DNA from: Isoetes taiwanensis
Lineage: Eukaryota; Streptophyta; Lycopodiopsida; Isoetales; Isoetaceae
Length of the DNA: 64,000 nt
Assembly: GCA_021234155.1 (NCBI GenBank)
Contig: JAJEKV010000041.1
Span: forward strand, 3,398,829 to 3,462,828
Reading direction: 5' to 3'
Below, piece by piece: positions 408 to 51,779 of this stretch. The first letter of the stretch is position 1; each line of letters begins with the position of its first letter. The position numbers were made by a program, and so were the translations under genes. The notes under the pieces were generated by a model. That model was not told where the DNA came from. It ran no database searches and saw nothing but the letters and a program-made list of their open reading frames with translations.

Positions 408-3400
408 ATGCTCGCTATAGACGGTGCACGTAACGCCGCCTGGCAAACACCTTCCAACGCCAGTAGGCTGACACCTGAACAGGAATTGATGTTAATGAAA
501 AGGCAACTCGGCGAATTACAGGCCTATGTATTGCATACCAATCCACCGCAACAAACCCAGGAGGACGGACCGGAATTACCTCCACGACCATTGAGTCCAC
601 CTGCACAACAGCCATCTCCCCCTAGAGCTAGCCCTGTACCTGCACAAGGGAGGACTCATGCTAAGCGTCACCGAAGTTCCTCTAAGGATAGCGCCACTTC
701 CTCACACTCAACCACTTCGGTGTCTTCTGGGTCATCGCTATCAGTCAGTGACCATGCGAAGCGTAAGGATAAGGAATACCGTAAAACCGTTGATACAGCC
801 ATAACTAGCATATGGAAGAACAGGAAGTTGGCTCAGTTTGATGGGAAATCCAGAGGCAGCTTGAATGCAGAATCCTGGTTGGACGAGATGGAGGAGTTTG
901 GAAAATCCTATGGAATGACGGAGAAGGATACAGGAAAGGTTGCCACCACCAACCTTATCGGAGCTGCCCGTATTTGGTGGAAGGGTTATGCCAGAGCTAA
1001 GCACCTGGACAGGAGCAGGTGCAAGTTCAAAAAGTTCGCTAAGGCTTTTAAATCGCATTACGTGCCTCGTGCGCACAAATGCCAACAGATCCAGACCTTT
1101 TACAGGTTAGAGCAGAAGGGCATGTCCGTTCAGGCCTACACTGATGAATTCATGCGCTTGAGGTTGTATGTACCAGGAATGAATGAAAAGAGGGTAGTAG
1201 AGGGCTACATTGAAGGGTTGGCCCCATCCATTAAACGAATGGTCAAGGCCATAGACCCAAAATCAGTAGCAGAAGCGGAAGCTAAGGCATTAAGCCTCGA
1301 AGAGGACACGCCAAGGAACCAGTATCCGCGACCTGCTCCTTACTCGCAGCCACGATCGTCCACGCCATATAAACCCCGCTCACCCAGTCCGGGGCCCTCT
1401 CAGCAGAACTCCTACGGTCGCCAGGAAAAGAAAGTCACCTTCAACATGCCTGACAAACCTACTAATGTTAGCAAGGAAGTTCAGAATCTCTTACAGTCTA
1501 TTCCCAAAGAGGCCCGAGATCAGCTACGTAAGGATAAGGCATGTTACAGGTGTATGCGACCCGGGCATTATATGCAGAATTGCCCTTATGTCACGCAGAC
1601 TGCCCAACTGGCCATGGAAGACCTCGATTGGGAAGATCTGGAGTCCAATCTGCCTATCGAGGACGAGGCTCCCGAGTACATTCACGGTGAGTCTCATATT
1701 CTTGCCACCATAGAAACTGGCAACGCTGAAACTCAGCCTTCAGTTATTTCTACCATAGGCCAAGTAGACAGCAAGCCTTTCATAATTTTAATGGATACGG
1801 GTAGTACGCATAATTTTGCTTCTCCTAGAATGGCCCAGGCATTGCAGCTTGAAACGTTGAGATCCCGACCTAAGCCAGTCACGTTAGCCAGTGGTAAGAT
1901 CAGGCACACGCATGGCCGCCGCATTAACCTTAAGATGCAGTTGCCCGGTGCACCAGTTGCTTTGGGTGCCGGGTTAATGGACATTGGCAAATATGATCTT
2001 ATTGTTGGTATGGAGTTCTTGGCATCTGCAAAGGCCAACATAGACTGCGAGAAACGAGAGGTTACCTTCAACGCCGCTAATGGAGCACGCGTGACGACCA
2101 AAGGTGATCCATTCCCCCCAGTTATGCAGTCTATGTCAATCAGGCAGTTAGAAAAAGCTATATGCAGGGATAAGCTCCTTTGCCTCATTACACTTGCCTC
2201 CATTGAGTCTGACACTAAGCAGAAGCAGGCAATCGATATCTTGCCACAAGGCATTGCCACCCTTCTTCGAGAATTTAGCGATCTTTTTCCGGATGAGATC
2301 CACAAGCTTCCTCCTTTCAGAGGGGTAGAATGTGAGATAGCTCTAGAACCAGGTACTAAGCCTACCAGCAAGGCCCCGTACCGAATGAGTCCTCCAGAGT
2401 TGGCAGAGCTTAAGAAACAACTTCAAGAGTTATTAAACCTAGGTTTTATTCGGCCTAGTGTTTCACCATTTGGCGCTCCTATCCTTTTTGTCAAGAAAAA
2501 AGATGGCTCCTTGAGGATGTGTATTGATTATAGGCAGCTCAATAAGCATACCATCAAGAATCGCTATGCTTTGCCTAGGGCAGATGATCTCATGGACCAG
2601 TTACAAGGAGCCAAATATTTCTCAAAGATTGATTTACGCTCCGGGTACCATCAAATACGGATAAAGGAGGAGGACATTTATAAGTCTGCGTTCCGTACCA
2701 GATATGGGCATTATGAATTCACCGTTATGCCTTTTGGGTTAACCAATGCCCCTGCAACGTTCATGCGGTTGATGAATGACATCTTCCGCCAATACTTGGA
2801 TGACTTTGTTGTTATTTTCTTTGACGACATTCTCATCTATAGTAAAACCTTGCAGCAACATGAACAGCATCTTCGATTGGCTTTACAGAAGCTAAGGCGC
2901 CATCAGCTCTTCGCCAAGTTCTCTAAATGCAAGTTTGCCACCCCCAAGGTCGACTATTTGGGGCATATTATTTCAGCAGAGGGAATTTCTACCGATCCAG
3001 CGAAGATAGAAGCAGTAAAGGATTGGCCTATTCCAAGTAATGTTTCAGAAGTCCGAAGTTTCTTGGGACTCGCCGGATATTATTGGAAATTTGTTAAGGA
3101 TTTTGCAACGATTGCCGCACCTCTTACTAATCTCACAAAGCATGAGAGAGTGAAGGATTGGATGGAACATTGGAAAGCAAAAGTCCAGGACGGCTTTCAG
3201 AAGCTCAAGGATGCTTTAACATCTGCACCGGTTCTCACCTTGCCCGATCCTGAAAAGGATAAACTAGTTGCCACGGATGCTAGCAAGATAGCTACCGGTG
3301 GAGTGCTAATGCAGGAGGGGAGAGTTGTTGCCTATGATTCAAAGAAGATGAATGACGCAGAGCAGCGATACCCTACCCATGATCAAGAGTTGCTGGCAGT

Positions 3401-3422
3401 TGTCCGCGCTCTCCGTATTTAG
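408..3422 (+). CDS. Gag-protease-reverse transcriptase-RNase H (Ty3), ends at a nonsense codon
   Basis: This is the first 1004 residues of a Ty3 polyprotein. Residues 1-110 are Pro/Ser-rich and low complexity. A retrotransposon Gag domain follows (about 125-285), then a CCHC zinc knuckle (C379, C382, H387, C392). The aspartic protease has its DTG at residues 463-465 in the context [10 protein letters not shown]. Reverse transcriptase covers about 650-830 with FFDD at 804-807. RNase H begins around residue 945 with catalytic D957 (ATDAS). The ATG at 408 is the first in this frame. The frame stops at TAG (3420-3422), where the related element at 38.6-51.8 kb has Trp in the same context (ALRIWRHYLLG). 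The open frame continues unchanged after the stop, so this looks like a single TGG-to-TAG change rather than a natural terminus. Confidence 0.93.
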
Positions 3423-4538
3423 AGACACTACCTTCTCGGTAGAAAATTTCAGCTAGATACGGATCATCAGAGTCTCCGCTATCTATCCACCCAGCCAAAT
3501 CTCAATCTCCGTCAGAGAAGATGGATGGAATTCCTCGAGGAATATGACTTCGAGATTATGTACAAGCCAGGGAAGCACAATGTGGTTGCGGATGCCTTGT
3601 CACGTCATCCTTTGATCACCCGAACCCATTGTAATGCCATTTCCACACTCACCAGCGAATTTGGGAAACAGATAGAACAGACCCTGGCCACAGATCCCGA
3701 ATTTTGTGATGTTAGGGGAAGTTTGGGAAAAGAAGCTCGTACAGATAAAGAACGTGAAGCTTTCCGTTCATATAAGAGAGAGGGCAACTTATTATATCAT
3801 AAGGATAAGTTGTGTGTTCCTGAGACTTCAGGGGTGCGCAAGCTAATTCTCCATGACACACACAACAGCCCTATAGCGGGACATGCGGGTTTTATGAAAA
3901 CTTACTTTAAGATCCGCTCCAGCTATTTTTGGCCTTCGATGAAGAAGGATATTGCTAGGTACATTAAGCAGTGTCAGGTGTGTCAACAAACTAAGGCTGA
4001 GCAATTAAGAGTTCCAGGAGAGTTGCAACCCTTGGATGTGCCCAACGCCAAGTGGGAAGTGATAACCATGGACTTCATTGTGGGCCTTCCACGTACTCTC
4101 CGTGGATATGATACATTAATGGTAGTGGTCGACAAATTGTCAAAGATGGCTCATTTTCTGCCATGTCGAACCACGGACACCGCCTTCGACACCGCCTTGC
4201 TATTTGCAAAAGAGATTTTCAGGTTGCACGGGATGCCAAGAGTAATTGTATCAGACAGAGATCCTAAGTTTGTAAGTGCATTCTGGAAAGACTTCTTCGC
4301 CACCATCCAGACCAAGCTTGCTATGAGTACAGCTTACCATCCTCAGACAGATGGTCAGACAGAACGTGTCAATCGTATTATCGAAGATATGCTACGAAGC
4401 TATGTATGGAGTAAACAATCACAATGGGCGGATTATATTTATCTGGTAGAGTTCGCCTATAACAGTACAAAGCAGGAGTCTTCCAAGATGTCTCCCTTCA
4501 TGATAAATTATGGCTATCAATGTCTTACTCCATTCTAA
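3423..4538 (+). CDS. RNase H end and integrase (Ty3), continuation of the 408 frame
   Basis: This region lies in the same frame as the ORF at 408 and is separated from it only by the TAG. It encodes the RNase H tail (DTDHQSLRYL, then VADALSRHP), the integrase HHCC zinc-binding region (around IAGHAGFMKT and QCQVCQQTKAE) and the DDE core. The catalytic acidic residues are D at 4071-4073 (TMDFIVGLP), D at 4254-4256 (VSDRDPKFV) and E at 4362-4364 (GQTERVNR). The frame breaks near 4530 after MINYGYQCLTPF, where the related family continues through the integrase tail. An internal start at 3525 would give a 337-residue product, but it is more likely part of the former polyprotein. Confidence 0.9.
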   Translation, partial: RHYLLGRKFQLDTDHQSLRYLSTQPNLNLRQRRWMEFLEEYDFEIMYKPGKHNVVADALSRHPLITRTHCNAISTLTSEFGKQIEQTLATDPEFCDVRGSLGKEARTDKEREAFRSYKREGNLLYHKDKLCVPETSGVRKLILHDTHNSPIAGHAGFMKTYFKIRSSYFWPSMKKDIARYIKQCQVCQQTKAEQLRVPGELQPLDVPNAKWEVITMDFIVGLPRTLRGYDTLMVVVDKLSKMAHFLPCRTTDTAFDTALLFAKEIFRLHGMPRVIVSDRDPKFVSAFWKDFFATIQTKLAMSTAYHPQTDGQTERVNRIIEDMLRSYVWSKQSQWADYIYLVEFAYNSTKQESSKMSPFMINYGYQCLTPF

Positions 4539-22689: not shown

Positions 22690-23240
22690 CAAATAGGTAG
22701 AATGCCTATTTGTTATTCCTACAAAATTGCAACGTTGTTAGCCAAGATCATGTAGTCTGACATGCATTGCCTAGGTTCAGACCTCTCTAAATTTAGAGGT
22801 TTGAGTAGAAAGCGAGGTTTAAGTAGAAAGCGCACGTTTCTTAGTAGCGTTTATGTCCATTGTTATCATACCTAGTATGAGCATCTTCAAATGTTGGACA
22901 AAACTTAACATTGTAATTGTGTATTTCTTCAAAACGGTGCCCACAGATGCCAGGCTATGTGGAAGTGTATATGGGCTTTTGAAATCCATAGGGCCATTTA
23001 TTCATGCTAGACAATCAATGCCATAATAATATAGGGATAGAAGTTACATGTGTTCAAGACAATAACATTAGTCAAATGCGGCTTGCATGCATGTATCAAT
23101 AACTTGTGATTAATGTAGGGACGTTCAATGTTTTAAAACCCTAATGTAGGGCATCAACACAAAGGAAACAATCACATATATCAACCATCAAGGTAGTCTT
23201 TATTTAAATCATATTTACATTCTCATATTTTCTAATACAT
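22690..23240. other. Stretch without a recognised gene
   Basis: AT-rich sequence with no supported ORF between the GC-rich foldback and the LINE fragment. Confidence 0.5.
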
Positions 23241-24692
23241 ATACAAAGCGCCTTCGACACAGTGCCCAGAGATAAACTCCTACTCAGACTAATAGGACTA
23301 AGAGCACCAGAAGGGTTAGTAGGATCAATTGCAAGGCTATACCAAAAGGTATATGCCAAGATAGAGGGGGGAGGGGAAGCCATAGACTGCGACACAGGAG
23401 TAAAGCAAGGATGTCCACTATCACCCACACTTTTTGGGATATACATAGATGCGCTACAGGAATTTTTCAAAGAAAGAGAGGGAGACAGGGAAGCACCAAT
23501 GATAGGGAGAACAAAAGTTCCAATAATGCTATATGCGGATGACTTAGGTATGATGGCGACCAAAGCCAAAGGAATGCACAGAATGCTAGAGATACTAGAA
23601 GAGTTCTGCGTGGAGACAGGATTGACAGTCAACCTGAGCAAAACAAAAATAGTGACCTTCGGTACAAAGACAAAACACAAGCCCTTTAAATACAAGGGAG
23701 AAGAGCTAGAGGAGACCACAGGGTACAGGTACTTGGGATATGATACACATGGTGGGGGAAAGTGGTCAAAATGGGCAGACAACAGATTCCAAACAGCAAT
23801 AGGCAATTATTACGTCATGATGAATTACTGTAACAACAACAGGATCACCAACTGGGAAATCAAAACATACCTATTTAGCACATTAGTAGCATCAACACAG
23901 CTGTATGGATGTGAGATGTGGGGGCCAGGTCTGTCAGAGAAGAAATGGAAAAAACAGGGAGGCATACTGAGACAATGGCACGGACAGGAATTCCAGGTTA
24001 AGGCAGGTACATCATTAGCAACAATCATATATGAAACAGGGGAAAAGCCAATGGAAGTGAGAGCATGGGAAAGAACAATTAGGTACCTAATAAAAGACAA
24101 CAGTTATGGGAAAGAGGACAAACTATCGTCACTGGCAATAGATGAATCAGCAAAGCAGCACATAGTAACAGGCAAGGGATGGTTTAATGAAGTGGCGAAG
24201 TGGACGGCAAGCATGGGGATGCAACTAAGCCATATCATACAAGCGGATGGATGGGACGAAGAATGGACAAGCAGGGCAATGAGAAGCTGGCTAGCACAAC
24301 ACACATGGCTTAAAACAGACTGGCTATTGGGAGCCTTCAATCAAGGGGGACAGATAGGACATATCACATACAAAAGCAACATGTTGAATAGGAGCAACAG
24401 AGGGACGCTGGCTAGGTTCAGAATGGGGAGCCACGACCTCCGAATTGAGAAAGATAGATGGAGAAAAATAGATAGAGCAGAACGAATATGTCGACTATGT
24501 GATTCAGAAAAAATAGAAGACGAAGCACATATGGTCAAGGAATGCCCGGTCTACACAGACATAAGGTCCAAATTTAACAAGTGGGATCTCCCACTCCCAG
24601 CACTGATGGACAAAGAAGAGACACTCACAGATGTAGCGAAAGCTATAGAGATGATAATAAGACACCGGGGGTGCACAAAGAGAAAGGGCTAA
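23241..24692 (+). CDS. LINE reverse transcriptase, C-terminal two-thirds (5'-truncated)
   Basis: The open frame enters at RT motif A (SAFDTVPRDKLLLRL). It continues through VKQGCPLSPTLFGIYIDAL (motif B), the catalytic YADD at 23532-23543, and KTKIVTFGT (motif D region). The C-terminus holds the CCHC-type finger of plant LINEs (CRLC, then HMVKEC) at about 24490-24550. The frame is otherwise uninterrupted over 476 codons from the GTG at 23262. There is no ATG start, and the endonuclease and N-terminal RT are missing, as in a 5'-truncated LINE insertion. No poly(A) tail is seen after 24692. Confidence 0.92.
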   Translation: MQSAFDTVPRDKLLLRLIGLRAPEGLVGSIARLYQKVYAKIEGGGEAIDCDTGVKQGCPLSPTLFGIYIDALQEFFKEREGDREAPMIGRTKVPIMLYADDLGMMATKAKGMHRMLEILEEFCVETGLTVNLSKTKIVTFGTKTKHKPFKYKGEELEETTGYRYLGYDTHGGGKWSKWADNRFQTAIGNYYVMMNYCNNNRITNWEIKTYLFSTLVASTQLYGCEMWGPGLSEKKWKKQGGILRQWHGQEFQVKAGTSLATIIYETGEKPMEVRAWERTIRYLIKDNSYGKEDKLSSLAIDESAKQHIVTGKGWFNEVAKWTASMGMQLSHIIQADGWDEEWTSRAMRSWLAQHTWLKTDWLLGAFNQGGQIGHITYKSNMLNRSNRGTLARFRMGSHDLRIEKDRWRKIDRAERICRLCDSEKIEDEAHMVKECPVYTDIRSKFNKWDLPLPALMDKEETLTDVAKAIEMIIRHRGCTKRKG

Positions 24693-24753
24693 TAATCTGA
24701 GAAGCACTATTGAGGCGAATCAGAGGGGCCCACAAAGTACAGTTCAAAACTGT

Positions 24754-25668
24754 TTATATAGAGACTGCTTTTCTTATCTCAACTGGGCATCCTAGCTCCT
24801 TAAGCCGTTCTCCTAACTTGCCACGTGGTACCCTGTCAAACGCTTTAGTAAAATCAACAAAGCTAGCATAAAGCACCCTATTAGGCCCTTTGGAACCCTC
24901 TGCTATCACCCTCAATGTCAACAGGTGATCGATGGTAGAATGGTCTCTCCGAAAACCTGCTTGTCCAAGAGCTCTTAACCCTTCTCTATCTGCCCATAGT
25001 GAGAGTTTCCTTTCAACCACCGCTCCAAATAGTTTAGCCATAATACTACTCACCATGATTGTACGATAGTTTCGCACACAATTGGGATCACCTGCTTTTA
25101 GGAGAGCCACTATTCTGCTCAAACACCACTGATCTGGAAACCCCTCACTTAATGACATGTTGAACATCTCCGCCACTTTTGCATGCACTGCTGGTCCTCC
25201 CCATTTCAGCAATTCAATGGCAAACCCTTCAGAATCTCTCGCTTTGCCGTTTGACATCTTCTCTAGGGCCACATCTATATCTATTGCTTCGAACACCTGG
25301 GATACCTCAGCTGATGGCACCTCCATTTTTGGGGCATCTGGTGCATGATATAACTCCTGTGCATACAGAAGAAGATCCTCTCTACTGAATTTCCCTGCGG
25401 AAGGTGCAACTGGCTTCATTCTGGCCCAAAGTTTCCGTGCATCATGATGCAGTTCATACTCTAGTTTTTCCTGCAATTCATGTACCCAAACTGCCTCCTT
25501 CCGTTTGAGAAATTTCCTGTATGCCTGCTTAGCTTCTTGCCTGGGTAGCTTAGCATAATATTCATTTTTAACCAGCCTGCACTCCTCATCCCACCACGCA
25601 GCATTCTTATGCGATCCTCCCTTCGTTAGACCAAACACCTGAGAAGCAACATCCATCACAATTTTCAA
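24754..25668 (-). CDS. LINE reverse transcriptase, N-terminal part (3'-truncated)
   Basis: 304 residues in minus orientation: an endonuclease-RT linker (AAWWDEECRLVKNEYYAKL) and RT motifs SNGKARDSEGFAIELLKWGG, NYRTIMVSSIMAKLF, QAGFRRDHSTIDHLLTL and FVDFTKAFDRVPRGKL (motif A). It stops shortly after motif A, so the catalytic YADD is absent. Overlapping the plus-strand LINE at motif A with a different sequence shows these are two copies. It joins the endonuclease ORF upstream through a one-base shift in a T/A run at about 25665. Confidence 0.92.
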   Translation of the reverse strand: MKIVMDVASQVFGLTKGGSHKNAAWWDEECRLVKNEYYAKLPRQEAKQAYRKFLKRKEAVWVHELQEKLEYELHHDARKLWARMKPVAPSAGKFSREDLLLYAQELYHAPDAPKMEVPSAEVSQVFEAIDIDVALEKMSNGKARDSEGFAIELLKWGGPAVHAKVAEMFNMSLSEGFPDQWCLSRIVALLKAGDPNCVRNYRTIMVSSIMAKLFGAVVERKLSLWADREGLRALGQAGFRRDHSTIDHLLTLRVIAEGSKGPNRVLYASFVDFTKAFDRVPRGKLGERLKELGCPVEIRKAVSI

Positions 25669-26609
25669 AAAACACTTACTTTTTGTGAGCAGGTTGCCTT
25701 TCCAGGTCCACGTTCACAAACCTTTGCTCCAATTTCCTTTTTATAATCTTTTTTTCTTCTCATGCCTCGGTTTTCCTTCCTCCTCCGGTATGCCGAAGCT
25801 TCTCCAACTACTTGAGCGCCTAGAGTAAATCTAAGCGAAGCATGGTTAGATTCCAACTCGTCTTCCACCCGAAAGCTTTCCACCAACTCTCTTGCAGCCG
25901 GATCACCTATTAGATAGTCTGCAACACTAGCATTTTGGCAAGTGAGCTCTGCTGAAGCAGGGAATTTAGGAACACCATTATACAATACCAGGCCATGTGC
26001 TTCACAGAGTTGCAGCAACTTTAAGCCTGAATCATTAACTATAGAATCTTTAGAATACCTCTTCCAACCTGCTGTTTCAACTTCTACAGGTGAGAGCTCT
26101 TGCAGAAGGACATCTTCCACCCCATTCACAAACATGCTGGCTTGTCGCTCTGCAGTTCTGCCATTGAAATCTCCAGCGAGAAAGACCTCCCCTTTTTCCT
26201 TAAATGCATTGATGTCTCTGGCCAAGTGTAAGAATGGATCCTCTCTAGATAAATCTTCATGAAGGTAGGTACTACTAGATGCAGGTGCAAAGTATGCAGC
26301 AGCAATGTACACCAGCTTTTTGCCCTTGATTTCCAACCAAATGTATTGGTTATACGCACACACTTTTGTGATTCTCACCTTAGCCACAAAATTGTTTCTC
26401 ACATAGCACGCTATTCCTCCAAACCCCCTTCCTGGACCTGCTCCCTTTGTATTCCAAGCCGATTCTAATAGAGTGAATTCATGTAGATGCCCTAGCCTTG
26501 CTGTTTCATGTTCCCAAGTCTCCAACAACACCACAATATCTGCCTCTTTCCACATAGAATGAGTTGACACCTCCTTCCTATTCTTAAAGCCATGCACATT
26601 CCATACCAC
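25665..26609 (-). CDS. LINE AP-endonuclease domain
   Basis: 314 residues of an apurinic-type endonuclease of non-LTR retrotransposons. It begins WNVHGFKNRKEV, with VVLLETWEHE (catalytic Glu), GIACYVRNNF, VFLAGDFNGRT (the D-x-N motif) and SNHASLRFTL (the terminal S-x-H motif). It nicks target DNA to prime reverse transcription. The ORF continues into the reverse transcriptase after a frameshift. Upstream coding continues past the listed start (RCVVWNVHG). Confidence 0.92.
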   Translation of the reverse strand: MVWNVHGFKNRKEVSTHSMWKEADIVVLLETWEHETARLGHLHEFTLLESAWNTKGAGPGRGFGGIACYVRNNFVAKVRITKVCAYNQYIWLEIKGKKLVYIAAAYFAPASSSTYLHEDLSREDPFLHLARDINAFKEKGEVFLAGDFNGRTAERQASMFVNGVEDVLLQELSPVEVETAGWKRYSKDSIVNDSGLKLLQLCEAHGLVLYNGVPKFPASAELTCQNASVADYLIGDPAARELVESFRVEDELESNHASLRFTLGAQVVGEASAYRRRKENRGMRRKKDYKKEIGAKVCERGPGKATCSQKVSVF

Positions 26610-26798
26610 ACACCTGAGGGCGCGTCCCTAGCAGCTATGGACATCACCATTCTTGTCCTTAATCCAGATTCTATCTCCCTTGATATATGCATGTTTCCCT
26701 TACGCTTTTAGAGCTTTTACCCGAAAGTTAACATGTCATTGAATTCTCGTTCTTTCTGCTGCCATGTGAGATCATTGTTCGACCAAAATGTTTGTCTT

Positions 26799-37011: not shown

Positions 37012-37139
37012 TCTTTTATATTATAATGTTATACCGTAAGTCTGTAGTGCATCGAGCCCTAATTTGAATGGCCGAGATCATCTGGATGCATCCGAAGGCC
37101 TAGATTTATTGCACGACTTACCAACACTGTGATTGGTTA

Positions 37140-38613
37140 TGCTTTGATCTCTTAAGGGGAAAGGGTAAATGAAAAGGGGGAAAAGGAAAAGGGAAGTGGA
37201 AAGAGAGAATGTGAAGGGCAAAACGGCATGGGGAAAAGGGAAAAGGGTAAAAGGAAAAGGGTGGGGATAAGAGAAGAGAAAAAGACATGGAAAACGAAAA
37301 AGGGAAAGGGAACCTGGGAAAAGGGCACGAGGGAAGGAGGAAGAGATAAAGTGGAAAAGGTAAATGGAAAGGGCATGAAAAAAAAAAGGAAAGAGGAAAA
37401 ATGTTGAAAAAAGGAGAAAATGAAGGAGAAAAAAACATGGAAAAGGGGAGGAGAAAAAAAGCATGGGAAAAGGAAGGAGGAGCATGGAAAAAGGGGGAAA
37501 AAGAGAAGAAGAGGAAAAATGAAGGGACAAATTGCATAGGAAAAGGGAAAAAAAAGAGGGAAAGGGAAGGGAAAAAACGCATCAAGAAAAGGGGAAGAGT
37601 GAAAGGTTGGAAAAATGAGGAAAAGGGAAGGGACAAGGGGGAACAAGAAAAGGATGGGGAGAGGGAAAAAGAAAAGGGGCATAGAAAAAGGGAAAGTGAG
37701 AAGAAAGAAAAAGGAAAGGGAAAAGGGGGAAAGGGAACCTAGGTAAAGGTCACAAGGAAAAAGAAAGAGGGAAACGAGAAAAGGGAAGGGGGAAAGGGCA
37801 TGAGAGAAAATGGAAGAGGAAAATGGTGAAGAAAGGGAAAAAAGAAAAAAAGGAAAAGAAAAGAGGCAAGAGAGAAAGGGTGGGGAAAAGAGGAAAATGG
37901 GTATAGTAAATAAGAGAATAAAACAAATGTGCAAAAGGCATGGAAAAAGGGAAAAGGAAAAGGAAAGGAAGGGAAAAAGTGCACAGGAAAAGGATCGGCA
38001 AAAAAGGAAAACGGAAAGAAAAAAACCCATCAAGAAAAAGAAACGGGAAAAAAGGGAAAGGGAAAGGGAAGCAGGGGAGTGATGGAGGGGAGGGAAAGGG
38101 AAAAAGGACATGAGGAAAGGAAAAGAGAAAAGAAAAAGGAAGGGTTGAAAGAAGGGAAAATTGCACGGGAAGAGGGAAAGGGTGGGAAAAGGAGGAAAAA
38201 GAAGCACGGGAAAAATAGAAAGAAGAAAAAGGTGGGAAAAGGGCATGGGAAAAGGGAAATAGAAAAGAAAAAGAATGGAAAACCATCTTAAAAGAGAGAG
38301 AGGCACGGGAAAAATGAGGAAAATGGAAAAGGGGAAGAGAAAAAGGGAACATGGAAAAAGGAAAGAGGGAAAGGGTGAGGAGATGGAAAAATGGAAGGTA
38401 AAAAGGGCATGGAAAACGAGAGGGAGAAAAAAAAAAATGGAAGGGAAAAGAGCACACAAAAAAGGGAGGAAAAGAGTGGGAAAAGGAGGAAAAGAGAAGG
38501 GAAAATAGGCATGGAAAAGGGCGAAAGAGTAAAAGGTTGAGAAAAAGGGAAGACATGGAAAAAGGGTGGGGAAAAGAGAAGGCATAAAAAAAGAGAAAGG
38601 GGAAGGGAAAAGG
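37140..38613 (+). repeat. Polypurine tract, left part
   Basis: About 1.47 kb that is almost entirely A and G on the plus strand. It is built from variable GGGAAAAGG-type words with scattered CATGG interruptions. It continues at 51780 beyond the inserted retrotransposon. Long minus-strand ORFs (up to 477 codons of Phe, Pro, Ser, Leu) are artefacts of a pyrimidine-only strand. Confidence 0.95.
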
Positions 38614-40192
38614 TGTGACGTCCTCTACTCGTATACGGTGCACTCACCGTATACAAACAGGAGTTCTTCCCCCACACCAGCTCCATCTCGTCACGGGGCC
38701 CTCCACATATCATTTGCACACTGAACGAGTCCCAGTGGGAAGAGTGAAGGTGTCATTCTACCCCGTCTCCCTCAGGGCCTACCTAGCTGCGGAAGCGTAA
38801 ACATACATGTCAGTAGCACATACATCAACATCCTGTGACCATCTCGAAGGATGGTCCTCCTCATATCTGCATAGACAAAGATCAGCACATCACATAGGGG
38901 ATCCTACCCAAGGCTCAGACTCAAGGATGGTGGCGGCTTGGGTCTCCCGGGGAGTTCGTTCTGAGCCGGAATTCATGGCAATGGGTTAGGCTGGCATAAG
39001 AACATGGCATAGGGTTGTCCACTCCATCCGCCCCTCCTGTGCACACTTTGCAGAGTAGGCTGAAAAGTGTCTGGGACTGACCCTGTAGCCCGCCGGATGC
39101 ATAGCCGAAGGGGCTATTCCTGGGTCTCATCCTCCCAGTTCCGATGGGGCAGGTAGGGATCACTCCCTCCAGAGATCTACATGCTGACTCAAGGTGACTA
39201 GAGGGCCACTGCCCGTATTCGACTGAACCCACTGGAAAGTGTACACCACTTCACGGGTGTCGAGCCCATGCCTTACCCAGCACTTTCGGTGGTAAGCCAT
39301 TGGACCTAGTCACAATGATCCCGGTAGGCTTTACACACACCGGGGGAATCGCTTCAGAGAACATGAACCTCCTTCTTAGCCAGTCCGGCCCCTTCACCCA
39401 CAACCCGGGTGTGGCTCTTGTACCTACAGGCGCCGATCTACAAGCAGTGTGCTAGAGAGGCTACTCTAGGAGCATCAACTACAAGCTTTAGGGCCTCTAC
39501 CCCCTCTTCCCAATACAAGGAGTTCACAGAGATACATCATCCAAATACATCACAGAAGAACTAAAGAACTAGATCTAATCATAGAGTTAGGTTCTTTAGT
39601 TAGTGTCCGAGATCTAAGTTCTAGATAGCTACTATGGGCAATTTAATAGTCTAAACCTCACGGTTCTATGACTAGAAGGCGGTTTAAGCTACTAAATTGA
39701 CCAAATACCCCGATCCTTGAGTGGCTCCTCCCTCGACCGAGTTCAACCATCCTGGGTGGCGGCCGAGGAAGGGAACCGATGGTGCAATTAAGCTTGGCGT
39801 GCGGGAGGTGGTTTTGGCTCTGGGGCAGCCAAAACCGAAGCTCTAAAACCCTAAGGATCGAAAAACTAGCAAGCTAGGGTTTTCCTACCCTAAATAGACA
39901 TGGGGTTTAGGCTAGGGTTTCCAATTACCCAATTTGGCATGTGGGATAATTGGAAAGGCCCCACTTGCCTTTAATGGCTAGGTGGCAAAATATGCCAACA
40001 TGGAAAGGTGTGCCCTCATTAATGTGCACATGTGCACATTAATAATATATGAACACTCCTAGCAAGTTGCCCCCTAGGGCTACTTACGGCTATCCGCTTG
40101 CGCATACCGCGTCGGTCGGTGGGTGTGCACGCGTGGTGATTTGATCAAGATAAAGATACGCCCCGGGACCGTATCATGCTTTGAACGCCACA
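38614..40192 (-). repeat. 3' LTR of Ty3 element 2
   Basis: 1579 bp. On the minus strand it runs TGTGGCG to CGTCACA. It matches 50217-51779 throughout. Close to its 3' end there is a palindrome, GTATACGGTG and CACCGTATAC, separated by four bases (about 38631-38654). There is no coding content. Confidence 0.93.
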
Positions 40193-41059: not shown

Positions 41060-41740
41060 CTACACAAATCGACATGCCCGAGCGATTTCTTGAGAGATGA
41101 CCTTGCCGTCCCATTGCTCCATAAAACCGTGGGTACTTTGCTTTTACTAAATCCTTCTTAAGTACCCACGTCGTCTTCCATCGGCAAGTGTTTCCACTTG
41201 ACCAAGTATTGGAGGAATTCCGACCTCCTTGTCTTCTTGAAAGCTTTATCAAGAATCATTTCGGACTATTTCGGTTGCTCCTCCGTCATTTCCAACAACG
41301 TTGAGTGTCCAAGACTTCGCCTGGATTTGGAGTATGCTTCTTCAACAAACTCAATGTGGAAGACCTTATGAATCTTTAGGTGTCTTTGGCAATTCCAACT
41401 TGTAGGATTGATTACCTACTCTCTTGATTATTACGAAGGGTCCAGCCCACCTTGGAGCAAGCTTCTTGCAATTGCCAATCTGAAGCTTTGCTTCACCTTT
41501 ATCTTGAGCCATACATCATCTCCAACTTTGAACTCTCGGATCAGACGATGCTTGTCGTGATGCTCTTCGGCGACTTCTTCTTTGCTAGGATAACCTCGAA
41601 CTTCTTCCACGAAGCTGCCGCATATCGGCCAACATCTGGCTGCTTGAAACTTCTACTTTTGACACTGGGGGTTGTGCCAAAGTGTGCAGAGTTAGGCAAT
41701 CGATAGCCATAATTGATCATAAATGGCGACATTTGGGACG
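41060..41740 (-). pseudogene. Integrase tail and chromodomain of element 2
   Basis: The ORF at 41541-41732 carries the integrase end (SPFMINYGYRLPNSAHFG). Further on, in other frames, LAPRW and HVS-type integrase-tail words can be read. At 41100-41250 the chromodomain reads LQYLVKWKHLPMED, then TWVLKKDLVKAKYP. The similar segment in element 1 is LQYLVKWKHLPVEDATWV. Several one-base shifts separate the pieces. Confidence 0.75.
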
Positions 41741-42355: not shown

Positions 42356-42832
42356 TTAATGCGTGTCATGGAGGATCAACTTCCTTACACCCGATGATTC
42401 GTGTGCGCACAACTTGTTCTTATGGTATAACAGGTTGCCTTCCTTCTTATAATGCTTGAAGGCCTCCCGCTCTTTATCTGTTCTAGCCTCCTTAGAGAGG
42501 CTTGCCCATACTTCCCCGAAATCCACATCCGTTGGCAAGGACTCTTCAATCTTCCTACCAAAGTCGCTGGAGAGCGTCGAAATTGCATTGCAATGCACTC
42601 TAGTTGTCAGGGGATGCCTTGAAAGCACATCTGCTACCACATTGAGCTTCCCCGGCTTGTAGACTATATCAAAGTCATATTCCTCGAGGAACTCCATCCA
42701 TCTTCGCTGCCTCAGATTAAGGTGTGGTTGCGTGAATACATATTGGAGGCTCTGATGGTCGGTATCCAATTGGAACTTCCTTCCCAAGAGATAGTGCCTC
42801 CATATTCTTAATGCCCTGACAACCGCAAGCAA
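42356..42832 (-). CDS. RNase H end and integrase N-terminus of element 2
   Basis: 158 residues. RNase H tail [20 protein letters not shown], then LDTDHQSLQYV and VADVLSRHPL, then the start of integrase (KLILHDTH). Here Trp follows ALRI, where element 1 has a TAG stop, which identifies that stop as a mutation. Confidence 0.9.
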   Translation of the reverse strand: MLAVVRALRIWRHYLLGRKFQLDTDHQSLQYVFTQPHLNLRQRRWMEFLEEYDFDIVYKPGKLNVVADVLSRHPLTTRVHCNAISTLSSDFGRKIEESLPTDVDFGEVWASLSKEARTDKEREAFKHYKKEGNLLYHKNKLCAHESSGVRKLILHDTH

Positions 42833-43238
42833 TTCTGATTGTCGCGTTGGGTAAGCGGCGTCTCGGCGTCGTTCATCTTTACGGAATCATAGGCTACCAC
42901 ACGCTCTTCTTGCATAAGCAATCTTTTGTAGCTATCTTACTCGCGCTGTTGCTACAAGCTTATCTTTCTCCGGGTCCGGCAAGGTCAGGACAGGGGCTGT
43001 CGTCAGAGCTTCTTTCAACAATGGGCTTTCTTGTGCCAATGCTCTACCCAATCTTTCACCTTCTCTGCCCTTGTCGTCCATTAATCGGGGCTGCTATCTT
43101 ATTAAAGTTCTTCCACGAACTTCTGTAGTACCACTAGACCGGTGAAAACTTCTCGACCTGCGTGCACATTCTTGGCGCCGGCCAATCAATCATTTGCTTC
43201 AATCTTGGCGGGTCCGGCCGAGATGCCTTCTGCTGAGA

Positions 43239-43484
43239 TCACATGACCAAGGTATTCCACCTTCTCTGTTGCGAAGTGGCACTTCGACAACTTTGGCGTA
43301 ACTGGTGCCTCTTCAACTTCTCTAGCACCCTTCTCAAGTGTTGCACGTGCTCTTCAAGGGATCTACTATACACCAAAATGTCATCAAAGAAAACAATCAC
43401 AAAGGTGTCTAGGAACTCCCTGAAGATATCGTTCATGAGCCTCATGAACGTTGCGGGGGCATTTGATAAGCCGAAAGGCATCAC
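43239..43484 (-). CDS. Reverse transcriptase catalytic segment of element 2
   Basis: 81 residues: [20 protein letters not shown], then [19 protein letters not shown] with the FFDD catalytic motif. It is separated by a shift at about 43550 from the N-terminal RT ORF. Confidence 0.9.
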
Positions 43485-43543
43485 TGTGAACTCATAGTGC
43501 CCATACCGCGTCCTGAAGGCGGTCTTGTGGATATCCTCCTCCT

Positions 43544-44092
43544 TTATCCGTATCTGATGATAACGACCTTAAAGTCGATTTTGGAGAAGATCTTTGCTCC
43601 TTGAAGCTGATCCATCAAGTCGTCTGATCTTGGAAGCGCATACTTGTTCTTAATGGTGTGCTTATTCAACTGTCTATAGTCTATGCACATCCTCAAAGAT
43701 CCATCCTTCTTCTTGACAAAAAGAATGGGCGCTCCAAACGGCGAGACACTAGGTCTAATGAAACCTAGGTCGAGCAGCTCCTGCAACTGCTTCTTTAGCT
43801 CCGACAACTCCTGCGTTGTCATTCTATATGGAGCCTTGCTTGTTGGCTTTGTTCCCGGTTCGAGTGCTATCTCGCACTCGACTCCCCTATAAGGAGGGAG
43901 CTGCTTGATCTCATCTGGAAAGAGATCGTGGAACTCCGTGATCAACTTAGCTATTTGCTTCGGCAGCTTGCTGAGCATCTTGTCTTCTTTGCTTCCTTCC
44001 AATTCCGGCTCGCTAATCTCAAGCTTGAAGATGTATGCTACTTGCTCACTCTTGATGCACTTGAACAGTCGTTTAGAAGACATGCACTGCAT
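43544..44092 (-). CDS. Protease end and reverse transcriptase N-terminus of element 2
   Basis: 182 residues: a connection segment, then [59 protein letters not shown] and [15 protein letters not shown]. Similarity to element 1 is high throughout. Confidence 0.92.
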
Positions 44093-44938: not shown

Positions 44939-45950
44939 TTATTGCCTTGGACTCAAAACCCGATCTTTGTTCGGGTTTATTGCCCTTACAAACTTGCGGA
45001 TCTCCTCATTCAGACCTTCAATGTAGCTTTCCACTGCGTGCTTCTCACCTAACTTTGGCACATCTGACCTTAGCCTCATAAATTCCTCTGTATATTTACA
45101 GACTTGACTTGTTGCCTTCTTTGCAACTTTGTAGAACCTATTTGCATCATCTTTTGGACTTGTGTTCTCTTGGGGCGTAATGGCGCAGAAAGGCTTTAGC
45201 AAACTTCTTGAACACCGCAAGCATCCCCCGCTTAAGCCATGAGCCTTGGCATAGCCCTTCCACCAAATGTCTTGCTGCTCCCTTCGGGTTATTTGTTGCC
45301 ACCCTGCCTTTATCCTTATCCTTCATACCATAGGCATTGCGTATTAGCTCATCTCGTCAAGCCAAGCCTCTGCCTCCATGCGACGCTGTTCTCTTTGAGA
45401 ATTGCTCGAGCTTCCCTGGCCTTCCAAACATTTCCCAATCACGAGTCTACTTTCTTACGGTAGTCGAGAGGTTCTTGTGTCCCTTTGTCGTCCGTCCGGA
45501 GGCGTTCCTCTTTTCCATCACCTTCGGTCTTGGTTACGCTCTTCTTCTTCCTCCCGGAATCGAGTCTGAATCCCGAGCTTTGAGTCAGTCAGAGCTGGGG
45601 ACCTTCCTCTCTTGCTCCTCTTCTTGTCTCTATCATTCTCCGTGATGCTTGCGGCGGTTGGCGTTACCGCCAGAACTGTTCTGGCATGCGGCTAGCAAAG
45701 CCTTTATCTGTTCGAGTCGGGTCCTCATTTTATGATATTTCTTCTTAGGGTCATTTGTCCAAATTCTTCAAGCGGGTTCCTTGCGGGAAGTAAGCTGGCG
45801 GGCTCATTCCTCTGTAAGTTCAGCGGTTATCGTTCTCCTGGCTCTCGGGCCTCTAGCTGCATACACAAGTGGTTCATATCTATATGGTTAGTTTTCCTTG
45901 CTTTCTTGCATTATTTATGTTTGTTGGCATGGTTGGGGAACACAAAAAAC
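44939..45950 (-). pseudogene. Gag of element 2 (broken)
   Basis: The best piece is 44939-45220: DDANRFYKVAKKATSQVCKY, TEEFMRLRSDVPKLGEKHAV and ESYIEGLNEEIRKFV, matching the Gag core of element 1 ([20 protein letters not shown]). Upstream pieces (EAEAWLDEMS, IWWKGYA) are read in other frames up to about 45.4 kb. A TATA-like CTATAAATG lies at about 45950 on this strand, upstream of gag. The exact start is not determined. Confidence 0.75.
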
Positions 45951-46457: not shown

Positions 46458-47566
46458 TCACGTATGCGCTTCCAAGTCATCAACCTCCACCGTGGTGAGC
46501 TCCACCGTAGCTCTCGGATTTATTCTTTGAAGCCCTCCCCGAGGTCGATTACTGTCTCTGTCCCCGGAGGTGCTTGCTTGGACGAGCTTGCCGTTAGGAT
46601 GTTTGAGGTCGCATAAGCGGATCCCCATTTGTTCTGAAGAGCAAGGAACTCTTCCCTCCGTCGGTAGCTTGTTCCCCGGCCTTATCTGCCTCCATAATCG
46701 CTGCCTGTTCTTTGTAGGCTTGGATGTCGGAGGTAAACTCTCCCGTGTAAGTGGGCTTCCCCTTACTTGGAGGGGGAAGTCGGACTCTCCTCTGGACGAT
46801 GAAGTCGTCCAAGTCCGTTTTTCGGGTTGGTGCAGCAACTCTTGGTCGGTACTCCCTTTCCACGCGACTCCAAGAGGTTTTGAATGTCGACAGGAGCGAA
46901 ACTCCTCACCTTCGACTATAATGGGAGCTAGGCTTGTGATGCCTAACCCGGTGGCGCGACTCGAGAGTCTGTGCCGGCTTCTTTCGAAGTCTTGCCACTC
47001 CTGCTCTGCTTGCCGCCGCTCCTCCGCTGGGTCGAGCTCGACATAGTCTTCCTCTTCTTCAGATTCCTGTTCTTCCGAGTCTTCTTCCTTCCCTTCCTGC
47101 TCCTGTTCATACTGTGTGAGGAGCCGTTGTTCTGCCACTATGGCTAATGGGTCCACGTCCATGGGGGGAATGGAGGTTTCCCCCACGGTGTTCTCGGCAC
47201 GGTGGGTGAGAAAGATTGCCGAGCTGGTGTTGAAAGAGAAGTACTTGGTCTGTTGGCCATTAGGACCATTGGCTCAGGTGTGCGGTGCGCTTTGTTTGTG
47301 AGGTATTTGGCGATGTTCGGGACATCGTCTAATGCTGCCTGCAGGGACTGTCTAGGAACAAAATATCCTACACAAGGGGGGAGTTGCACTAGCGCTGGTT
47401 CTACCCTAGCTTGGAACTCAGTCAAGACTCTACTATAAGCTGGGGTCGCGTGCAAGGTTGCTTGGACGTCTACCTCCTTCCTGAAGATCTGGAAGATTTG
47501 GTCGACGTCGGCCTCAAGAAGATGAGCATATTTGCGGCTATACCATCTCTGGAAATCGGTTGCCAT
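46458..47566 (-). CDS. Accessory gene 2 of Ty3 element 2 (unknown, acidic; broken frame)
   Basis: It starts at an ATG (47566) about 115 bases after a TATA box. The first 120 residues (MATDFQRWYSRKYAHLLEAD onward) look folded: helical, with VDVQATLHATPAYSRVLTEF and LPPCVGYFVPRQSLQ. A shift near 47195 passes to a frame that starts VGETSIPPMDVDPLAIVAEQ, then a very acidic stretch (EEDSEEQESEEEEDYVELDP), a charged helix, and ITSLAPIIVEGEEF. Near 46860 a further shift leads to KTDLDDFIVQRRVRLPPPSK and YTGEFTSDIQAYKEQ. The family is not recognised. Its position between the 5' LTR and gag recalls the extra ORF of Ogre/Tat elements, but no sequence similarity is claimed. Confidence 0.6.
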
Positions 47567-47680
47567 TGATTAATTGCGGAAGAGGGTAACAAATGGGTTG
47601 CAAGAGCGCCTCGGGGAGTTGGGAAATCGGCTAGAAGGGCGGGATGCATTTGTAGGGTGCTATCTCGAGAAATGAGGGGT

Positions 47681-48136: not shown

Positions 48137-48659
48137 ATCATGTCTCTCGGCTTGCAAATGTCCTATTCCACTGGAATAAAAGCTAAAACTTATTAATTTG
48201 CTCTAATTAACCAAGTTTATGTCATCAAGATACACAAAATTGCTCTATATTACAAAAATTTTAATTATTTACAAAACCAGTTCTAAGGGCGTTCTCCCTT
48301 AATGCGGTCGCGCAAGACTCATGTCTTGTCGCATTAAGGTTACCCGCTTATGGATAGTGCGGTGTTGAGTCTTCAAAATGTTGCACTATCTTTGCCTCAA
48401 CCGCCTCTTGCATTGCCGGCCGGCGCCTGGAAAAAGTGACTCTAAAGTCACATTGCAGTGGCCCTGCATCACTTCACTTGCCCCAACCAACCGAAGGGGG
48501 GCCACGGGGAATTAGGAGGCGGCTGCTTGTTGGAAGTGTCTAATCTCCCTTAGCAGCTCTTCTCTCCACCTCCTTCCTATCAGCTTTCTTCACGGGTGGC
48601 GGCTTGGGAACCTTGGGCCCGGTGGTGGCGGCCTTAAGGTTTCTTTGCTTAGTTGGTCA

Positions 48660-49543
48660 CCCTCCCTCGATGAACTTAACCCTGTTTTCTTCATAATATT
48701 TGTTGTAGGCCTCCCATTTCTTCATGTAGGCCTCGTGCTCTCTCATCTTCCTCTCAGTAAATCTTCACCACAAGCCGGTGGCGTAGGCTTCCCCGGTGTC
48801 GTGGTTCTTCTTTCTATCCCATGCGGGTTTCGGGGGCTTACACTTGGTCTTCTTTGGGGTTGCTTTCAGTCTTGGCTACTCGGGTACTTCACCTTTCGTC
48901 GCTGGGTGCTTGGAAGAGCTTCCACCTGCAGCATTAGGGTCGAAGTCCTCCTCGGAAAGAGTCGTCCCGGGAGGGTTTGGGGGTTGTCGGGTTGCCGCTC
49001 CTTGATGACTATGTTGGGGTTCGGCCTCTTCCTTGGCGAGGCGGTCCTTCGTTCTCCTTATGCCCGACCCGCGAACTTCCCTTTTGCTTTCTTCTTCTCT
49101 TCTGCTGCCTTTTGTTCCTCTTCCTTCCTTTTCCTCTTTTTTGTCTTCCCTTCTCTTACTTAGCATTCGTACTTTTCGATGACCTTCTAAAGATTACTAC
49201 TACCTCCGTGGCTCGGACACATCACTTGCTCATCTGCTCGAGGGATCTCAGGTAGATCTTTGTCTGAATAGTGCCTTGTTCTTTGCTTAGGATCTCCCGC
49301 TCTATTCCTTCATACACCTCCCTCGTCTCCTCGTCCATGGGTTCGGTGATGTGGCCTCGTCACCTGCTCTGCACTTTGGGTTGAAGCCCTCAATCGGTCG
49401 GACGTGTCTTGCTCCTCGTCCGAAGGCGAACGTCCCCCTCTCGCGAGCCTCTCACGAAGCATCTTCCGAATGATCTCCGCCTCAGTGGCGCTGGTGGCTT
49501 CGCCTGGGCGACGCTTCCTTGCGGTCTGTTTGGTTCGGGCCAT
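48660..49543 (-). CDS. Accessory gene 1 of Ty3 element 2: histone H3 tail mimic
   Basis: ATG at 49541-49543. The protein begins MARTKQTARKRRPGEATS: after Met removal, residues 1-9 equal the histone H3 tail (R2, T3, K4, Q5, T6, R8, K9), but position 10 is Arg instead of Ser. The intact ORF has 77 residues and continues with AEIIRKMLRERLARGG and an acidic stretch. Later frames on the same strand (for example 49166-48876, rich in Lys/Glu, then DPNAAGGSSSKHPATKG; and MREHEAYMKKWEAYNKYYEE at about 48.7 kb) look like the rest of a roughly 300-residue coiled-coil protein broken by indels. No histone fold is present, so this is not a histone gene. Likely nuclear or chromatin-directed (inference): a mimic could bind H3-tail readers or be modified by H3 enzymes. 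Confidence 0.7.
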
Positions 49544-49644: not shown

Positions 49645-49654
49645 CTATTTATAG
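49645..49654 (-). promoter_or_regulatory. TATA box of accessory gene 1
   Basis: On the minus strand CTATAAATAG lies about 102 bases before the ATG at 49543. Confidence 0.7.
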
Positions 49655-50200: not shown

Positions 50201-50215
50201 CATTGCTCGATACCA
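50201..50215 (-). promoter_or_regulatory. Primer-binding site of Ty3 element 2
   Basis: On the minus strand, TGGTATCGAGCAATG follows the LTR end after one base. It resembles TGGTATCAGAG, the site for initiator tRNA-Met, with one base missing next to a CG. This identifies 50217-51779 as the 5' LTR. Confidence 0.8.
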
Positions 50216-50216
50216 C

Positions 50217-51779
50217 TGCGGACATCCCTACTCATTATACGGTGCACTCACCGTATACAAACAGAGTTCTTCCCCACACCAGCTCCATCCATGTCTGGGG
50301 CCCTCCACATATCACCGCACTGTAACGAGTCCCAAAGTGGGAAGAGTGAAGGTGTCATTCTACCCCGCCTCCCTCGGGGCCTACCTAGGCTGCGGGCGTA
50401 AACATACATGTCAAGAGCACATACATCAACATCCCGTGACCATCTCGGCGATGGTCCTCCTCATATCTGCATAGACAAAGATCAAGACATCACATAGGGG
50501 ATCCTACCCAAGGCTCGGACTCAAGGATGACCGACGGGCTTGGGTCTCCAGAGTTCGCTGGGCATGTAATTCATGGCAATGGAGTTGGCCGGCATAAGAA
50601 CATGGCATAGGGTTGTCCACTCCATCCGCCCCTCCCATTGCACACTTTGCGAGTAGGCCGAAAAGTGCTCCGACCCCGGGACCGTAGTAGCCACGGGATG
50701 CATAGCCAAGGGGCTATTCCCTCGGTCTCATCCTCCCGCCCGATGGGGCGGTAGGGATCACTCCCTCCGAGATCTACATGCCGACTCAAGGTGACTAGAG
50801 GGCCACCGCCCGTATTCGACCAACCCACCGGAAAGTGTACACCACTTCACGGGTGTCGAGCCCATGCCTTACCCGCACTCGGTAAGCCATTGACCTAGTC
50901 ACAATGATCCCCCGGTAGGGCTTTACACACCGGGGAATCGCTCAGAGTCAAACATGAACCTCCTTCTTAGCCACCCGCCCCTTCACCCACAACCCGTGTG
51001 TGGCTCTTGTACACAGGCCGAATCTACAGTGTGCTAGAGAGGCTACTCTAGGAGCATCAACTACAAGCTTTAGGGCCTCTACCCCCTCTTCCCAATACAA
51101 GGAGTTCACAGAGATACATCATCCAAATACATCACAGAAGAACTAAAGAACTAGATCTAATCATAGAGTTAGGTTCTTTAGTTAGTGTCCGAGATCTAAG
51201 TTCTAGATAGCTACTATGGGCAATTTAATAGTCTAAACCTACGGATTCTATGACTAGAAGACGGTTTAAGCTACTAAATTGACCAAATACCTGATCCTTG
51301 AGTGGCTCCTCCCCGACTGAAGTTCAACCATCCTCACCGAAATTTGAATTGGCGGGGAACCGATGGTGCAATTCGCCAAGGGCGTGCGGGAGGCGGTTTT
51401 TGGCTCCTGGGGCAGCCAAAACCGAGCTCTAAAACCCTAAGGATCTAAAAACTAGCAAGCTAGGGTTTTCCTACCCTAAATAGACATGGGGTTTAGGCTA
51501 GGGTTTCCAATTACCCAATTTGGCATGTGGGATAATTGGAAAGGCCCCACTTGCCTTTAATGGCTAGGTGGCAAAATATGCCAACATGGAAAGGTGTGCC
51601 CTCATTAATGTGCACATGTGCACATTAATAATATATGAACACTCCTAGCAAGTTGCCCCTAGGGCTACTTACCTGGCTATCCGCTGGCACACCGCCGGGT
51701 CGGAGTGGGCGGTAATGCTGCGTGATCTGGCGATGCAATATACGCCCCGGGACCCGTATAATCGTCTTTGGAAACGTCT
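50217..51779 (-). repeat. 5' LTR of Ty3 element 2
   Basis: 1563 bp matching 38614-40192. Long blocks are identical by eye (39452-39655 with 51029-51235; 39861-40070 with 51446-51656). Most differences, including indels, are in CG-rich stretches. Both ends are clear by comparison with the other copy. Confidence 0.93.

Follow-up and report, generated by a model that had tools for sequence, protein, structure and literature searches.

Captured histones are already known from DNA viruses, and the retrotransposon case described here is what appears to be new. Single H3 histones occur in xenomavirus, Dishui Lake phycodnavirus and sylvanvirus, with extended tails in three of six, according to a review of viral histones (PMC9145170). 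As given there, these viral genes resemble the one reported here, referred to below as retro-H3, in that each is one H3-like gene in a mobile genome with no partner histones, in that some have longer N-terminal tails, and in that the α2 chaperone site is changed. They differ in that the viral fold is 73-87% identical to the H3 of the possible host, as against 52-59% for the main clade of retro-H3, and in that retro-H3 belongs to an LTR retrotransposon, occurs in many copies and carries an insert of ~300 residues behind a perfect tail tip. In the main text of the review 'retro' occurs 0 times and 'transposable element' once. The bracovirus H4 (CvBV-H4), as described in that review (PMC9145170), enters host nucleosomes at sites near host genes, with tail-dependent effects. 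Like retro-H3, it is a captured core histone with an extended tail, but it is an H4, is delivered by a polydnavirus and has a demonstrated function, whereas for retro-H3 we infer one.

Comparable elements of non-seed plants have also been described. Tat elements of four mosses and Selaginella tamariscina share with the retro-H3 elements an accessory ORF upstream of gag, but this ORF is a separate RNase H (aRH) and not an H3, and 'histone' occurs 0 times in the main text (PMC10508981). Tcn1-like chromoviruses of lycophytes and mosses likewise have a gypsy pol with a chromodomain, and differ in that the text available from the reports mentions no histone gene (PMC2864245, PMC3350952). Extra ORFs are mentioned in this lycophyte and moss gypsy literature as far as its text was available, and again no histone gene (PMC2864245, PMC3350952, PMC10508981). 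A literature search, the scope of which excludes preprints and most subscription journals, gave no retrotransposon with a captured histone among the matches listed, as judged by titles and the starts of abstracts. Short mimics of the H3 tail are found in other, unrelated proteins and share the N-terminal residues of H3; retro-H3 differs from these in that its tail and its fold are both homologous to H3.

The locus lies in a 64,000 bp stretch of the Isoetes taiwanensis genome (the window), inside a minus-strand Ty3/gypsy element. As an earlier note on this DNA had stated, the minus-strand ORF at 49543-49310 (MARTKQTARKRRPGEATSATEAEI...) has a MARTKQTARK start, and it runs for 77 codons to a stop. 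A scan of the window for ARTKQTA codons with up to two mismatches returned a single site, that of this ORF, with 0 mismatches; shuffled versions of the window gave a mean of 0.10 sites, and at least one site in 9 of 100 shuffles. The note had further claimed that no other H3 sequence follows. This proved wrong: 0.9-1.2 kb further downstream, at 48665-48302 of the minus strand, are the decayed remains of an H3 fold. With host H3, the canonical H3 gene at L054, as the tblastn query, two minus-strand segments, AMQEAVEAKIVQHFEDS (48416-48366) and KRVTLMRQDMSLAR (48349-48308), were matched 1.1-1.2 kb downstream of the tail, each weak singly (E 0.091), while an H3 core of the element type (from L021) matched 48665-48363 on the minus strand at E 6e-11. 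One of two window fold pieces matched Pfam Histone (PF00125) at E 0.0014 and 19.3 bits, below the cut-off of 26.4, and the other gave no match. The frames between tail and fold are linker-like when compared by eye with better-kept relatives. Hence the window copy is a broken retro-H3 gene of ~1.24 kb, of which the 77-codon ORF represents the intact front. This front (49310-49543) holds MARTKQTARK and the start of the linker. The rest of the linker (48543-49309) is broken over three frames, for example 49193-48879 and 48764-48660 (ERKMREHEAYMKKWEAYNKYYEENRVKFIEGG), and the same segment was recognised by eye in the uninterrupted ORF described below; the decayed fold and C-terminus (48302-48665) complete the gene.

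The surrounding element has the parts of a Ty3/gypsy LTR retrotransposon, namely an LTR pair, a primer-binding site (PBS), gag (sub-threshold in the window copy), reverse transcriptase and RNase H, all on the minus strand. The part of the 5' LTR that aligns to the 3' LTR spans 50236-51685, with the LTR end placed just before the PBS, at about 50216. The 3' LTR spans 38632-40098, and similarity ends at 38632 in low-complexity pyrimidine sequence. In blastn the pair is 89.6% identical over 1494 columns, with 85 mismatches and 44 gap openings. The PBS (50204-50215, TGGTATCGAGCA), which we take to be of the initiator-tRNA-Met type, has TGGTATC counterparts in many related places. Downstream of the retro-H3 gene follow a broken second accessory ORF (ORF2, 46461-47569), and remnants of gag (45005-45145; PF03732, E 0.0061, sub-threshold), reverse transcriptase (43296-43565; PF00078, E 5.4e-20) and RNase H (42677-42859; PF17917, E 1.3e-16), together with a Tf2-1-like SH3 domain in the integrase C-terminal region (41375-41476; PF24626, E 1e-08). 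The chromodomain noted earlier in the same element is present as a remnant (41170-41262), but is sub-threshold in this decayed copy (PF00385, E 0.0053, 17.1 bits versus a cut-off of 25.1). A long low-complexity pyrimidine-rich stretch with F/S/P-rich frames (37078-38752) borders the 3' LTR and apparently cuts it at 38632. Elsewhere in the window, LINE-type endonuclease and reverse transcriptase ORFs were seen by eye on both strands at 23204-26627.

The tail start was counted in the 1.66-Gb genome with a pattern that covers codon 8 up to its second base. Exact matches numbered at least 2079, versus 0 for the reversed-pattern control, and at least 2832 versus 3 when up to one mismatch was allowed. 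These counts and the window shuffles rule out a chance origin. The H3-type start is present in many copies and is written with different codons; two of the refuting conditions set in the earlier note, other copies without the motif and a chance fusion confined to this copy, were thus not borne out. In IMG/VR the tail pattern had 0 matches. The first 100 of the genomic places in contig order, which are not a random sample, were fetched (L-numbers). Ordinary H3 genes or pseudogenes are rejected as the source of the tail starts, since only 2 of the 100 are canonical H3 and 98 are not. Many tail copies are broken, including the window copy and most of those examined.

Among the 98 non-canonical copies, codons 2-8 occur in 48 versions with a third-base heterozygosity of 0.45-0.69. 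All seven wobble positions vary, which rules out conservation at the DNA level, as for a primer site or a splice signal. As many copies use different codons, protein-level selection on the H3-type N-terminus appears likely; the copies were collected by the tail pattern, and their fixed residues 1-7 are therefore partly a product of the sampling. Position 8 lies outside the search selection, and 83 of the 98 copies have R there, for which six codons are used. At position 9, 52 copies carry K, 16 carry V, 15 carry I and the rest another residue; in the 83 copies with R8 this residue is K in 49 and I, V, M, T or L in 34, and S10 is retained in 3 of 98. The connection drawn earlier between K9 and the chromodomain is not supported by these figures. 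The block common to families is thus A1-R8, centred on R2/K4, and the sequence after residue 9 is of at least eight kinds as judged by eye (KRPGE-, KFGERPTLSM-, KVSKDD-, VVPDD-, VPRGD-, KPRRSGSSS-, IHPGGVRP- and VPG-).

For 20 places (L009-L028) more than 10 kb was covered, and in 18 of these an H3-core match lies downstream on the same strand. In L017 the match lies at the edge of the fold, taking in the pre-fold segment and no more than the beginning of helix N, and L013, L020 and L028 have decayed strongly. Three of the matched places, L021, L016 and L027, supplied H3-core queries, and host H3 finds the same three as well (7e-28 to 4e-17). The two places that had no H3-core match, L024 and the start belonging to L019 itself, are both of the VPG family. 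The idea of an H3-tail mimic that lacks the rest of H3 is consequently not sustained for the window or for the 18 places, and the places that would fit it belong to a single family. In most places covered far enough, the H3-type tail belongs to a complete homologue of histone H3.

In L077 and the directly adjacent genomic DNA (L114), a single uninterrupted ORF of 434 codons contains all three parts: the tail takes up residues 1-10, the linker extends up to about 313, a GGHPTKQQ segment begins at 314 and the fold starts at 350. The GGHPTKQQ segment may loosely resemble H3 from G12 on. Since four residues of helix 2 are missing, this copy is not called functional. Of the seven extended places, the whole run is in one frame only in L077; in five others pieces of the fold stand behind a stop or in a different frame, and the remaining one, L086, has no fold within 3.6 kb. 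From the canonical tail (residues 1-37), residues 1-8 are kept, followed by a charged, fast-changing linker of ~300 residues that separates them from the fold. The canonical motifs ARKS, KSAP, GGVK, KAPRK and LATK, around K14, K23, K27 and K36, were absent in three frames from 27 of 28 stretches of 1.4 kb, the exception being L025 with two of them in different frames. A protein search for relatives in other organisms with the 279-aa ORF of L011 gave no match at E up to 10. The fold region of the 434-aa ORF had 176 candidates, of which 56 matched at E ≤0.001; all 56 carry Pfam Histone, and the closest is 56% identical over 62% of the query part. The plan of tail, linker and fold was absent from the ten proteins inspected among these 56.

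The retro-H3 gene is the first recognised gene after the PBS, upstream of gag. Of 20 related places, 12 have TGGTATC on the upstream side of the ATG at a distance of 566 to 705 nt; in L025 it is at -968, and in the other 7 it is absent. A TATAAA(T/A) motif stands at -108 to -117 from the ATG in 14 of 21 elements, the window included, and is absent there in 7. In the window it is TATAAATA (49646-49653, minus strand), 110 nt upstream of the ATG between PBS and ORF. Single-base shuffles of the counted stretch gave a mean TATA count of 0.97 and a maximum of 5 in 500 shuffles; the copies with the box are related and so do not represent 14 independent events, and quite different families share the position. 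The box is probably an internal promoter. In the window the PBS is separated from the ATG by a stretch with short frames of 35, 48 and 22 codons, which could impede translation of the ORF when genomic RNA is the template.

Gag/pol similarity follows the tail on the same strand in 13 of the 20 places. By tblastn, 10 of 20 related places also have a relative of ORF2 on that strand, at a distance of 2.2-2.6 kb behind the tail; one further match, in L019, is part of the L018 element. The relative at L027:2925-4445 (+) is uninterrupted over 507 codons. A Pfam search with ORF2 gave no match, and its structure model has a pLDDT of 45. ORF2 of the window has an acidic stretch, which, speculatively, could suit a histone partner.

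Retroelements are known to take up sequence from their hosts, and the many broken copies would suit a captured host gene that has no function and is simply carried along. This explanation is the least probable of those considered, given the 48 synonymous tail versions, the conserved position of the TATA box and the selection on the fold. In the 6 of 55 fold pairs that are unsaturated, dN/dS is 0.055, 0.011, 0.12, 0.08, 0.06 and 0.05, the other 49 being saturated and little informative; purifying selection on the fold is strong in the measurable pairs. Of 22 chosen pairs for the stretch after the tail, 20 were measurable and gave 0.06-0.84, with 18 of these at 0.15-0.45, and two were saturated; some of the ORFs compared contain part of the fold or ends that are out of frame, and this moves dN/dS in either direction. 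In the pair L016-L062, the values are 0.007/0.61 for the fold versus 0.144/0.64 for the stretch after the tail.

The fold itself is that of an H3 and, like the tail start, recurs in many families. Five fold pieces (L021, L010, L016, L019 and L109) matched PF00125 at 78-106 bits versus the cut-off of 26.4, with E values of 1.4e-28, 2.4e-26, 7.8e-22 and 3.6e-28 in the four that are linked to a tail and 1.9e-30 in L109. Among the matches listed, the element core found PDB entries that are H3 chains by name (60 listed of 174), and not H4, H2A or H2B; for the L101-type core the matches listed were likewise H3 chains (60 of 176). Residues R69, R83, H113, K115, R116 and D123, which we take to have roles in H3-H3 and DNA contacts, are retained in 6 of 6 aligned main-clade cores. 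R63 is changed, and the α2 chaperone site described in PMC9145170 reads EMLL or DMLL in the main clade versus SAVL in the host, and host chaperones may thus not recognise retro-H3. Because the chaperone site is altered, deposition may use another route. A structure model of the H3 core, made with no partner, is poor (pLDDT 58.9). Condensation of element cDNA or binding of its RNA in particles by retro-H3, as a basic nucleoprotein, would agree with the basic linker segments joined to a histone fold and with a gene upstream of gag. We regard such packaging as improbable, since it would not need the conserved, modifiable tip of the tail, and no other histone was recognised by Pfam in the element pieces tested.

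In the tree, the H3 of gypA, a second Ty3/gypsy element whose gag-pol lies at 408-4538 of the plus strand (ORFs, domains by eye), groups with host H3 (87/81), the main clade stands apart (100/98), and L101 is unstable. This is no proof of separate captures, as host H3 stays near the ancestor. The main-clade folds share LIP, VTL and mostly PFARLV with P0041, a grass protein that we take to be CENH3-like, and group weakly with it (support 78/83). A CENH3-like retro-H3 might mark or tether the integration complex, acting with the integrase chromodomain, and so address it to particular chromatin or the centromere. However, for each of the 10 element cores the score with host H3 exceeds that with P0041, and the loop-1 insertion of the CENH3 type is absent in the main clade, which makes such addressing doubtful. 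The IHPGGVRP family (L101 with L112, and L031) has an H3 fold behind a shorter linker, and in L101 a four-residue insertion in loop 1, presumably as in centromeric H3s.

Tail and fold can come apart, as one gypsy element has the fold without the canonical tail and one family the tail without the fold. The former was found at L109:4612-4869 (+), 2.1-2.4 kb upstream of the window and before gypA, where the fold is 80% identical to host H3 over 82 residues and overlaps the end of a 421-codon reading frame; the frame before the fold starts with MAITKSAPDP and not with MARTKQTAR, and the frame after it is ORF2-like by eye. The latter family (MARTKQTARVPG...WCIEIGNIHPG) comprises L019:8901-8704 (-), L024 and L086 with L113, and by their N-terminus also L071 and L082, and accounts for 5 of the 98 copies as judged by eye, with L071 and L082 covered for 600 bases only. 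No H3 fold was found within 8.9 kb in L019 and L024 or within 3.6 kb in L086, and Pfam gave no match on L024. L019 and L024 carry an acceptor-like site (CTAAC...TTCTGCAG) just before the ATG. For this family the mimic reading still fits, in the three places covered beyond 600 bases.

The proposal in the earlier note that the element makes a decoy or platform also gains from these data an element-owned tail at the extreme N-terminus of many copies, but what it took for a free-standing tail is mostly the tail of a whole H3. As a soluble protein, retro-H3 could expose A1-R8 to readers, writers and demethylases of the H3K4 region, and keep them off the element or recruit them to the particle, with the fold as a scaffold. 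Binders of this kind include PHD fingers, WDR5-like subunits and LSD1-like enzymes. That A1-R8 is common to families, including the one in which no fold was found (L019, L024 and L086), while K9 is not conserved, speaks for such a role; the purifying selection on the fold would be left unexplained, and we consider a decoy unlikely, though a better candidate than addressing or packaging.

On balance, we favour the explanation that an H3 gene was captured by Ty3/gypsy elements, in which it is retained as a working variant that would probably join host H4 in nucleosomes. Nucleosome use is thus placed first, a soluble decoy next and chromatin or centromere addressing third. The identity, spread, architecture and selection of the gene are shown by the data above, and for every step after translation we infer the following course. 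The ORF would be translated both from genomic RNA and from an mRNA of its own, and removal of the initiator Met would expose A1. The fold would then pair with H4 of the host, named as the partner because the element has no other recognised histone, and retro-H3 would be placed in chromatin or on the new DNA of the element. There the tail would offer R2/K4 to K4 writers and readers; proteins of the K4 region read A1, R2, T3 and K4 to R8. Such a tail, with K9 missing in many families, S10 missing in nearly all of them and the canonical sequence around K27 and K36 missing as well, would favour an open, hard-to-silence state. More tentatively, and with rather less confidence than in capture and nucleosome use as such, a large group of LTR retrotransposons may make its own H3 variant from an internal promoter and build or edit nucleosomes on its own DNA, with the K4 end, which is read as 'active', kept and the silencing sites dropped.

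It becomes testable whether elements counter silencing in the nucleosome itself. If retro-H3 enters nucleosomes, a transposon could rewrite the very marks by which plants silence transposons, and its many natural variants would reveal the residues of H3 required for this, namely A1-R8 and the fold, and not K9.
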